DNA of 64,000 bases, taken from assembly GCF_016056375.1 (NCBI RefSeq), contig NZ_JAEDAE010000001.1, positions 434,001-498,000 of the forward strand, written 5' to 3'. A program made the position numbers and the translations under genes. Shown piece by piece: positions 43,807 to 51,008 of this stretch (the first letter of the stretch is position 1; each line of letters starts with the position of its first letter). The notes beneath the pieces were generated by a model that searched no databases, was not told where the DNA came from, and worked only from the letters and a program-made list of their open reading frames with translations. Source of the stretch: Hymenobacter negativus (GTDB lineage: Bacteria > Bacteroidota > Bacteroidia > Cytophagales > Hymenobacteraceae).

Positions 43807-43935
43807 CCGTTGGCCCGGGCGGGCCATGCTACCGAAACGGCCCCTGCGGCGTGTGCCGTACCTTTACACTGCCTGGCCGGGCAGCGGCGCAATTTGCGGC
43901 CGACTGGCCGGGCCTCCCTCATCCGAATTCCCTCC

Positions 43936-44568
43936 ATGGAAAACCCCGTTATCATTCTTGGTGCCCAAACCGTGGGCACCGCTGCCCTCGACGCTTTCCT
44001 TTCCAACGACGTGGTGGTGTATTGCCTGCTCGACGACGACCAGAAACTGCAAGGCACCGAACTGCTCGACGTGCCCGTGATGGGCAACACCGACGACGGC
44101 GAGCTGCTGAAACTCCTCGGCAAAAAGTGCGAAGTTTTCGTGGCCACCGAGGACACTGCCAGCCGCCGCAGCCTCACCCAAATGCTGCGCACCGAGTACG
44201 AAGCCGTGCCTGTGAATGCCATCCACGAGCGGGCCAGCGTATCGAACCACGCCATCCTGGGCCACGGCAACTACATCGGCCCCAATGCCGTGGTAGCTGC
44301 CACCGCCACCCTCGGCGACGGCTGCCTGGTGGGCGCTAATGCCGTGGTAGAAGCCCGCGCCACCGTGGCCGACTACGCCCAGTTGGGCAGCGGTGCGCTG
44401 CTCGGAGCCGATGCCAAAGTAGGCGAACAAGCCTTCATCGGCGCCGGCGCGGTAGTGGTGGCCGGCGTAAAAATCGGCGACAAGGCCCGCATTGGCGCTG
44501 GTTCGGTGGTAGTGGCCGATGTTCCGAATGGCCAAACGGTATTCGGCAACCCGGCGGTTAAGGTCTAA
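43936..44568 (+). CDS. NeuD/PglD-like left-handed beta-helix acyltransferase
   Basis: A 210-residue acyltransferase. An N-terminal Rossmann-like domain (residues 1-85, MENPVIILGAQTVGTAALDAF and CLLDDDQKLQG) precedes a hexapeptide-repeat left-handed beta-helix (about 90-210; AILGHGNYIGPNAVV, GDGCLVGANAVV, LGSGALLGADAKVG, VFGNPAVKV). This is the build of NeuD, PglD and related sugar O- or N-acetyltransferases that modify surface sugars. The histidine equivalent (GHGNYIG) is present. The start at 43936 is used; the upstream open frame to 43810 lacks similarity. A TACCTTTA one-off -7 box is at 43859. Confidence 0.85.
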   Translation: MENPVIILGAQTVGTAALDAFLSNDVVVYCLLDDDQKLQGTELLDVPVMGNTDDGELLKLLGKKCEVFVATEDTASRRSLTQMLRTEYEAVPVNAIHERASVSNHAILGHGNYIGPNAVVAATATLGDGCLVGANAVVEARATVADYAQLGSGALLGADAKVGEQAFIGAGAVVVAGVKIGDKARIGAGSVVVADVPNGQTVFGNPAVKV

Positions 44569-48723: not shown

Positions 48724-49932
48724 TCAGGTGCCGCAGTTAAAGTACTTATCGTAAGCCGATTCTGGAATAAGATTCAGCCGGCTCATGAGCTTGATGGGAC
48801 CGCGCAGCAGCTGAAGCAGCGCGTAATTGTTGGGGTAGTCGTGGAAGGTTTTGGGTGGGGCAGCCACAATGGTTTCGAATTCGGCGCGCGTCAGCCCCAG
48901 GCGCTTGATGCAGAGTGCAATTACCGCCTCGTCCTCAATTAAATTGACACTGGAAATGCGGTGCAGCGCCACTTCCCGGCTCATCTGGCCCGAGCGTATC
49001 AGCGCCGAATAATTAAACAGCCGCCGGTCGATGTTGAATTTGACGCGGTTGAGGTAATAAATCAGGCTCTGGTAAAGGTCGTCGGAATAATGCGCGCCCG
49101 GGCTTTTCCAAGCCAGCTCCCGCACCAGCAACTCGTCGACCTCGGTCCGCACGTAATCAAGGTGATAGAGCAGTGTCACGGTTTTGATGCGCCGCACAAA
49201 TGCGTAATAGAACATCTCCTTGATGCCCAGATTGAAGCCCGGGTCGGCGGGCTGCCAGCGCCGCAGCGGCACCGTGCCAAACTGCTTGTGCACGGCCCGC
49301 AGGTAGCGCCCGTCCAGAAAATTCCAGCTGAGCGGCGCAATGCCCTCGGTGCGAAACGACTGGCCGATGACCAGGTGCCGGATGCCCTCCTTGGCCGCCA
49401 CGCCATACAAAGCAGTGGCGATGCCCAGGTCGGTGCCTTCCTCCATGTCGGGCACGGAGGCTTTCAAAAAAGCTATTTTCAGGTCTTTCGACTCGCGCCA
49501 GTCCGAGGTGATGGTGCGCAGCTCCACGCCCAGGCGCTGGCAGGTGCGCACCATGTTTTCGCCGGCCACGGGGTTGCCGAAGCCGTCGTTGAAGTGCACG
49601 GCCAGTGGGCGTAGCTTAAGTTGGGTGACGCAGTACCAGAGCGTGTAGGTGCTGTCGCGGCCGCCGCTCACGCCCACCACGCAGTCGTAGCGGCGGTTGC
49701 GGCCGGCCCGGCGCATCTCCTCGGCTTGGCGCCGCACGGTTTCGCGGCCGGCTTCGCCAAGGGGGAAGGCGGTTTCCATGCGGTCGTGCACGTCGCAAAA
49801 TGAGCAGTTGCCTTCCGCATCAAAGGTGATGCCCGGCGCAGTGGTATCCATCACACACCGGGTGCAACGCTGATAGTCAGCCGCTGAATCCGTTGTAGGT
49901 GAGAAGTCCTGGGAGCGTAATTGTGTTAGCAA
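48724..49932 (-). CDS. N-acetyl sugar amidotransferase (PP-loop ATP pyrophosphatase)
   Basis: A 402-residue WbpG/PseA/LegG-like enzyme. An N-terminal zinc motif (CTRCVMDTTAPGITF, then CSFCDVHDRM: CxxC...CxxC) precedes an ATP pyrophosphatase PP-loop VGVSGGRDSTYTLWY. Relatives amidate a C-acetamido sugar to an amidine or acetamidino group in surface polysaccharide, using ammonia made by a HisH-type glutaminase and usually a HisF partner. No HisH or HisF gene is visible; instead a nitrilase-fold amidase gene lies directly upstream on the same strand. Polysaccharide genes are absent in the window. Confidence 0.88.
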   Translation of the reverse strand: MLTQLRSQDFSPTTDSAADYQRCTRCVMDTTAPGITFDAEGNCSFCDVHDRMETAFPLGEAGRETVRRQAEEMRRAGRNRRYDCVVGVSGGRDSTYTLWYCVTQLKLRPLAVHFNDGFGNPVAGENMVRTCQRLGVELRTITSDWRESKDLKIAFLKASVPDMEEGTDLGIATALYGVAAKEGIRHLVIGQSFRTEGIAPLSWNFLDGRYLRAVHKQFGTVPLRRWQPADPGFNLGIKEMFYYAFVRRIKTVTLLYHLDYVRTEVDELLVRELAWKSPGAHYSDDLYQSLIYYLNRVKFNIDRRLFNYSALIRSGQMSREVALHRISSVNLIEDEAVIALCIKRLGLTRAEFETIVAAPPKTFHDYPNNYALLQLLRGPIKLMSRLNLIPESAYDKYFNCGT

Positions 49933-50075
49933 TGGAAATGGAAATAAGGGGGGCCGTATAGCGAACTATGGGTGTACAGCAAAGACAGATTGTGAGGTAC
50001 TGCAGGTGGGTGGCAGTTAAACGGAAAGCAGGCAATTCGGTAGAGAGTAAAAGTTATAAGGCAGAAGGCAGATAC

Positions 50076-51008
50076 TTAGGGCAATTGGTCGAAGCGGTAG
50101 CCTTTGCGCTGAAGCATAAGGCCAATGTCGGTGCCCCGCTCGGGGCGATGGGGGCGCGCAAGGTCGGCCACGACCAGCTGGCCGGCAAACTCATTGAAAG
50201 CTCCCTGTGCGCGCACGCCGTGGGCGTCAACGGCCAGAGAGCAGCCCACACTTTTTTTCCCTTCATACGGCCCGCCCACAATGTAGCCGACGGATGTGAC
50301 GCTGACCACCACTACGTTGTAGAGCTGGGCAAGAATGGAAAACGGCTTCACCCATTTCTCCTGATAGGGGTCGTGCTCCTCGGTGATGGAATAGTCCACC
50401 GTCCACGACGCCGGCGCAATGATAAATTCGGCACCCATCCGGGCCAGGGTATGGCCAATGGGCAGCCCGTCGAGGTAGTTATCGGCGCAGATGTTCACCC
50501 CGATTTTGCCTAGCGGGGTGTCTACTACGTTCAGTGTCTGGCCCACAGCATAGTACGGCTGCTCTACGTCCAGGAGGTTTATCTTGTGGTATTTAACAAT
50601 GATGTTGCCCTGCGGGTCTATGAGGATTGCCGCGTTGAAGTTGCGCCCATCGGCGGCGCGCTCGGTGAGGCCTGCACACACATAAATCTGGTAGCGGGCC
50701 GCCGCTTCGCACAGCATGTTGCTATACGTGCCGGGGATGGGCTGGGCTTCGTAGAGGGCGCTGGGGTGCGTCCAGGCAAAATCGAGGGTTTCGGGCAGGA
50801 GCACCAGCTCGCAGTTTTGGGCGGCGGCTTCGGCAATCTGCTCCACGGCCCGCGCAAGGTTGCGGGCGGGCTCGCCACCCTCAACCAGCAGTTGTCCCAG
50901 GCCAATACGTAGCGTGCCAATTGGTTCCGGCACGTCGGGCAATGCCGGAACTGAAGGTGCAGGTTTACGAAAAGAAAAGAACGAAGCCATGAAATTTTGC
51001 GAAGCCAC
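50076..51008 (-). CDS. Carbon-nitrogen hydrolase (nitrilase fold)
   Basis: A 310-residue amidase-fold protein. The Glu-Lys-Cys triad is intact: E in LVLLPETLDFAW, K in IIVKYHKINLL, C in GVNICADNYLD, and a second conserved Glu in the middle region DYSITEEHDPYQEKW. No signal peptide. Two in-frame ATG codons (51008 and 50990) are possible. Nitrilase-fold amidases include the glutaminase half of NAD synthetase, which feeds ammonia to a PP-loop partner; a PP-loop sugar amidotransferase is the next gene downstream, 143 bases away. Substrate unproven. Confidence 0.9.
   Translation of the reverse strand: MASQNFMASFFSFRKPAPSVPALPDVPEPIGTLRIGLGQLLVEGGEPARNLARAVEQIAEAAAQNCELVLLPETLDFAWTHPSALYEAQPIPGTYSNMLCEAAARYQIYVCAGLTERAADGRNFNAAILIDPQGNIIVKYHKINLLDVEQPYYAVGQTLNVVDTPLGKIGVNICADNYLDGLPIGHTLARMGAEFIIAPASWTVDYSITEEHDPYQEKWVKPFSILAQLYNVVVVSVTSVGYIVGGPYEGKKSVGCSLAVDAHGVRAQGAFNEFAGQLVVADLARPHRPERGTDIGLMLQRKGYRFDQLP

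Follow-up and report, generated by a model that had tools for sequence, protein, structure and literature searches.

A nitrilase-fold hydrolase gene accompanies a WbuX-type sugar amidotransferase gene in place of HisH/HisF in Hymenobacter and other bacteria

Sugar amidotransferases of the WbuX/WbpG/PseA family (TIGR03573) are PP-loop enzymes with HisH/HisF-type partners, and their genes stand in an amino-sugar context; WbpG, PseA and LegG are all enzymes that we take to use HisH/HisF. In the structure of the family member LpNASAT (PDB 8wex), the PP-loop is accompanied by a zinc-bound tetracysteine motif, according to the accessible part of PMC10607449. Among Sphingomonas insertions affecting colony morphology, WbuX, HisF2-type and HisH genes are listed together in the available excerpt of PMC11340318. 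A nitrilase-fold protein is combined with a PP-loop synthetase in glutamine-dependent NAD synthetase (NadE), which occurs fused or as two subunits (Thermus TTC1538/1539). In the two-subunit Thermus enzyme, the nitrilase-type subunit enables the use of glutamine, and the accessible text of PMC3376133 names nitrilase-type (class IV) glutaminases for NAD synthetase only. NAD synthetase has a glutamine-contacting Glu following the catalytic Cys, and a long YRE loop, as described in the accessible part of PMC6946656.

The locus analysed here lies in a stretch of 64,000 nucleotides from a Hymenobacter genome (the window), and resembles both designs (Table 1). It shares the family, the PP-loop and the tetracysteine motif with the WbuX/WbpG/PseA systems, but has a nitrilase-fold gene where those have HisH/HisF. 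It shares with NadE the combination of a nitrilase-fold protein and a PP-loop synthetase, but its synthetase half is WbuX rather than NadE. A preliminary description had reported that the hydrolase gene is directly upstream of the amidotransferase gene on the same strand with its Glu-Lys-Cys triad intact, and that the amidotransferase carries an SGGRDS PP-loop and a CxxC...CxxC motif; all these features are present and intact.

Table 1. Features of the gene pair (positions in the window)
Feature	Position	Strand	Evidence
WbuX/NASAT-type (TIGR03573) PP-loop sugar amidotransferase	48724..49932	-	family profile match
Amidotransferase PP-loop SGGRDS	49651..49668	-	sequence; invariant in 27/27 aligned paired members
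Amidotransferase tetracysteine CxxC...CxxC	49795..49866	-	four Cys, invariant in 27/27 aligned paired members
Spacer between both open frames, 143 bases	49933..50075	-	
Carbon-nitrogen hydrolase (nitrilase fold), putative ammonia-supplying partner	50076..50990	-	PF00795 match; relative's fold
Hydrolase catalytic Cys codon, C168	50487..50489	-	invariant in 30/30 paired nitrilases
Hydrolase catalytic Lys codon, K136	50583..50585	-	invariant in 30/30 paired nitrilases
Hydrolase catalytic Glu codon, E67 from ATG 50990	50790..50792	-	invariant in 30/30 paired nitrilases

The first start codon of the amidotransferase frame is TTG 49932, which may not be the true start, since homology begins at about 49881. 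Trimmed to the homologous start, the protein scores 203.3 bits and thereby passes the TIGR03573 WbuX cut-off of 203.2 bits by 0.1 bit, while the form with the TTG extension stays just under it (203.1 bits). Five paired relatives score between 197.8 and 224.9 bits, the lowest value, below the cut-off, belonging to the amidotransferase of locus L101. The four Cys codons lie at 49864-49866, 49855-49857, 49804-49806 and 49795-49797. The N-acetyl sugar amidotransferase 8wex is the best PDB sequence match and is also matched by the fold of a relative of the amidotransferase in a fold search. By its membership in the WbuX/NASAT family, the protein has amidation of an N-acyl sugar as its putative activity. 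A HisH/HisF-linked WbuX relative in genome G046 (L046:9526-10686) lacks the N-terminal tetracysteine motif, and another relative (L162:13386-14534) looks likewise devoid of it.

The hydrolase matches PF00795 (CN_hydrolase) with 118.6 bits against a cut-off of 23.2, and its start is probably ATG 50990 rather than the alternative GTG 51008. Its nearest solved structures, as judged from a relative, are archaeal amidases/nitrilases and Nit2-type proteins, not NAD synthetase; a Pyrococcus amidase/nitrilase heads the folds found for the modelled relative (Z 31). PH0642-type archaeal nitrilases/amidases and the Nit2 omega-amidase (Z about 30) carry the same triad as the hydrolase, and we know of no PP-loop partner of either. 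The paired nitrilases differ from them by motifs of their own, WTHPS and GGPYEGKK, present in all 30 aligned members; QLLVEGGEP is equally constant, but overlaps the search pattern itself and so is not independent as a shared motif. Archaeal nitrilase and other amidase models also match the hydrolase better than those of NAD synthetase. The NAD synthetase model NF010588 gives 48 bits against a cut-off of 479, which is a weak test, because the model extends over the full length of the fused enzyme and even the NadE of this genome falls below the cut-off. The residue after the catalytic Cys is Ala in 27 and Ser in 3 of the 30 paired nitrilases and never Glu, and their YRE loop is shorter than that of the genome's own NAD synthetase in an alignment with this one NadE. 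A triad-adjacent Glu is absent in four of the 30 (L115, L117, L123 and L128).

Conservation of the pair was followed by a scan in which the hydrolase alignment alone was run against 84,980 species genomes and the exact peptides QLLVEGGE or GQTLNVVD were required, so that nitrilases of this kind without either peptide were missed. The scan found 119 loci, of which the best 80 were kept and 39 were unseen. A WbuX gene lies on the same strand at 79 of these best 80 loci, and at the remaining one, L057, the sequence stops inside the nitrilase; the gene pairing is thus far from chance. Within the best 80 of 119 loci, the pair spans about seven phyla and is borne by Bacteroidota groups, Omnitrophota, Acidobacteria, Deltaproteobacteria, Bdellovibrionales, Nealsonbacteria and Opitutia, mostly as metagenome-assembled genomes (MAGs) outside Hymenobacter and Solirubrum. 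Across 37 Hymenobacter genomes, including that of the window, 21 have both genes adjacent in the same order (in G011 the nitrilase is split by a contig break) and 16, two of them merely 82% complete, have neither. Co-occurrence and gene neighbourhood, which the preliminary description had proposed as a check, support the pair as a conserved unit. Three more distant WbuX-bearing genomes (G040, G041 and G046) have no nitrilase match beside WbuX.

In eight of nine pairless Hymenobacter genomes, the ferredoxin and valS genes are kept without the pair, either close together or with genes between them; in the ninth, L206, the ferredoxin was not found in the 8-kb region. By eye, a leucyl/phenylalanyl-tRNA-protein transferase-like protein is encoded in the ferredoxin-valS interval of the pairless L207, L209, L213 and L214, and just after the amidotransferase in the pair-bearing L040 and L041. 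Apparent differences in gene content between the Hymenobacter flanks, drawn from greedy ORF maps, were set aside, as antisense ORFs can cause them. In five of 30 non-Hymenobacter loci, the nitrilase stop codon ends only after the matched part of WbuX has begun; in six of 30, the matched part begins this early or at most 4 nt past the stop codon. In L111 and L122, WbuX is in two frames.

Three loci depart from the usual arrangement: in L104 the nitrilase lies 3.3 kb upstream of WbuX, which is adjoined by a 50-residue nitrilase remnant; in L125 the order is reversed; and L203 holds a second WbuX copy with nitrilase, HisH and HisF all absent from the region fetched. L104 (5992-11271) and L203 both belong to G455, so that this genome combines two closely related copies of WbuX with an intact nitrilase and the remnant, an arrangement that suggests an insertion or rearrangement inside the pair.

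We searched for HisH and HisF with profiles built from three loci, which do detect them in this genome's own histidine operon and beside other WbuX. Neither protein was detected at E 0.001 at any of the best 80 of 119 pair loci in flanks of up to 6 kb, and no profile match occurs in the window at E 1, which bears out the earlier remark that the amidotransferase has no HisH/HisF gene nearby. The whole genome has one HisH match above the cut-off, outside the window beside two HisF-like genes in a histidine-operon-like setting, and two further HisH matches far below it.

A comparison within Bacteroidota gave the converse picture. From 395 genomes, 60 of them with a WbuX match, 30 loci were fetched, comprising two nitrilase-paired WbuX and 28 of the other type. 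HisH and/or HisF accompany 27 of these 28, within 1.5 kb of WbuX at 25, and a nitrilase accompanies none. L131 has HisH and HisF further out, beside a second WbuX, L137 has HisF only, likewise further out, and L139 has neither in its 17-kb region. The nearest sister WbuX, from Omnitrophota (L198-L202; 452, 448, 390, 347 and 331 bits), are accompanied by HisH and HisF within the fetched regions, as is the more distant L205 (229 bits). Seven high-scoring WbuX were found in 193 Omnitrophota-group genomes, five of the seven in genomes already within the hydrolase scan; the nitrilase is adjacent in five cases (once in two frames and once matched only from profile position 30), 3.3 kb off in one and missing from the fetched region in one, L203. 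These partner counts exclude weak WbuX-like matches of Omnitrophota (below 130 bits), 22 of which (L174-L195) show HisH/HisF within 1.5 kb only at L174 and L193. Both WbuX types, each with its own partner, occur in G467, G477 and G469, all of which are MAGs and hence possibly mixed bins. The hydrolase gene thus occupies the place where other WbuX have HisH/HisF, and no examined member of the nitrilase clade combines the amidotransferase with HisH/HisF while the hydrolase is separate or absent, the finding that the preliminary description had named as contradicting it; the exceptions to the regular pairing are L104, L125 and L203.

In a quick tree of 78 WbuX rows, 34 nitrilase-paired sequences and the partnerless L203 copy form one clade (SH-aLRT 98). 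The tree includes the window and six Hymenobacter/Solirubrum scan loci and leaves out L102, L108, L110, L111, L122 and L136; partner labels were assigned per locus, and the row L203_8258, on a long branch, is by eye an asparagine-synthase-type protein rather than a WbuX. As the tree has no inferred root and includes some long branches, the direction from HisH/HisF to nitrilase is one that we infer. Distances on the nitrilase and WbuX gene trees correlate with r = 0.46 over 27 loci, a value reached by 0 of 2,000 permutations, and with r = 0.45 over the 23 non-Hymenobacter rows (2 of 2,000 permutations).

The surroundings of the pair were compared in 31 loci (L098-L128, with L102 representing Hymenobacter), some shortened by contig ends. 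Recurring neighbour clusters are GT2 (19 loci), aminotransferases (17), small membrane proteins (15), SDR (15) and hexapeptide acyltransferases (12, L102 among them); the most widespread family besides the pair itself reaches 19 of these partly shortened loci. Pfam names obtained for neighbour representatives are DegT, hexapeptide, GT2, EamA, SDR, formyltransferase, Gfo/Idh/MocA and carbamoyltransferase. Many of the non-Hymenobacter pairs hence sit among amino-sugar and glycosyltransferase genes, a context that presumably resembles the Arn lipid A pathway. GT2 and DegT clusters are absent from view in L101, L108-L110 and L121, where a carbamoyltransferase is present. The carbamoyltransferase gene follows directly after the pair in L101, L108-L110, L112 and L121 (PF02543/PF16861, tested in L101), and a B12-binding radical SAM gene is near the pair in L101 and L112. 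A formyltransferase is encoded in the clusters of L116 (3667-4641; Pfam tested) and L117 (3685-4620), a hint that the sugars there may be formamidino instead of acetamidino derivatives. In Hymenobacter the pair stands alone, with no sugar genes beside it. A hexapeptide acyltransferase gene at 43810-44568, 4.2 kb from the amidotransferase gene, was rejected as a pathway partner, since Hymenobacter genomes without the pair carry it too. A membrane protein from the L098 cluster has no match in the window's genome in a search run without a positive control.

Natural read-through chains of L083 and L117, in which the domain order is imposed by the gene order, gave AlphaFold models with pTM values of 0.68 and 0.60, with no confident interface and no non-partner control. 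As a rough estimate, unpacked domains yield a pTM of 0.5-0.55 and packed ones about 0.8. NAD synthetase 5kha was the first Foldseek match of a read-through model, across both domains with an rmsd of 18.5 and a query TM-score of 0.30; VIA-align placed 3syt at rank 50 across both domains with an rmsd of 24.5.

On this basis, we consider it likely that the two genes form a two-component amidating system in which a nitrilase-fold ammonia supplier has replaced HisH/HisF, and which makes amidino sugars. The nitrilase-fold protein would hydrolyse a small amide, most likely L-glutamine, by means of its Glu-Lys-Cys triad and release ammonia, thereby doing the work of the HisH/HisF proteins whose genes lie next to other WbuX genes. 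With ATP at the PP-loop, WbuX would activate an acetamido or formamido group, the N-acyl substituent of an activated amino sugar; by analogy with the WbuX/NASAT family, ammonia, transferred between proteins that may be in physical contact, would then displace AMP and leave an amidino group on the sugar. The sugar substrate in Hymenobacter would come from genes elsewhere. The preliminary description had regarded the pair as a split enzyme of the NAD synthetase type. Its conserved, HisH-free nature and the amino-sugar context of many relatives agree with an amidating unit of this kind, but the hydrolase has neither the NadE-type Glu nor the long YRE loop and is nearer to other amidases; the comparison would hold by analogy only. 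The Thermus enzyme is a precedent for the possible mode of action of the pair, not for its membership in a group.

Other readings of the pair have to be weighed against this one. The nitrilase might act in the same sugar pathway by hydrolysing an amide, either of the sugar itself or of a pathway intermediate, with WbuX using free ammonia, a reading that we judge improbable. Its proximity to small-amide amidases and its missing NAD-synthetase-type glutamine contacts would suit such a role, and the accessible part of PMC3376133 gives evidence that ammonia is the in vivo nitrogen source of typical single-domain NAD synthetases; however, it would remain unexplained why HisH/HisF are absent with the nitrilase and present at sister WbuX loci, and why three MAGs hold both types with separate partners. 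We regard as distinctly unlikely a scheme in which the PP-loop protein no longer amidates a sugar but makes another nitrogenous group (an amide, a nitrile or similar), which the nitrilase then trims or converts back. Nitrilase-fold enzymes do have nitriles and amides as substrates, and the isolated Hymenobacter pair as well as the sub-threshold score of L101 would be compatible with it, yet each of the 27 aligned members has a TIGR03573 match with E no higher than 0.001, the PP-loop and four Cys are invariant among them, and amino-sugar genes surround many non-Hymenobacter loci. Conserved neighbours moved together by horizontal transfer, in the absence of direct functional coupling, would account for the presence of both genes or neither in Hymenobacter and for a tree correlation that is only moderate; this seems to us very improbable, as the pairing has been kept in about seven phyla with varied surroundings and, among the 31 loci compared, some of them shortened by contig ends, every other neighbour family reaches 19 loci at most.

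As to the origin of the two-component amidating system, we lean slightly towards a nitrilase-fold glutaminase that was recruited independently of NAD synthetase, displaced HisH/HisF once and spread in several phyla as a two-gene unit making acetamidino or formamidino sugars. In the open-licence PMC literature, we found no paper on a nitrilase paired with WbuX among those listed, as judged by titles, abstract starts and term counts, and none that contains both 'N-acetyl sugar amidotransferase' and 'nitrilase'; the version of this sugar-modifying enzyme with a nitrilase for HisH/HisF has apparently not been described so far. As a two-gene system, the pair is simple to test. If the proposal is true, it would represent a second, independent recruitment of a nitrilase-type protein, implying that ammonia-supply modules are swappable between unrelated synthetases, and amidino sugars would be predicted in bacteria such as Hymenobacter and Omnitrophota.
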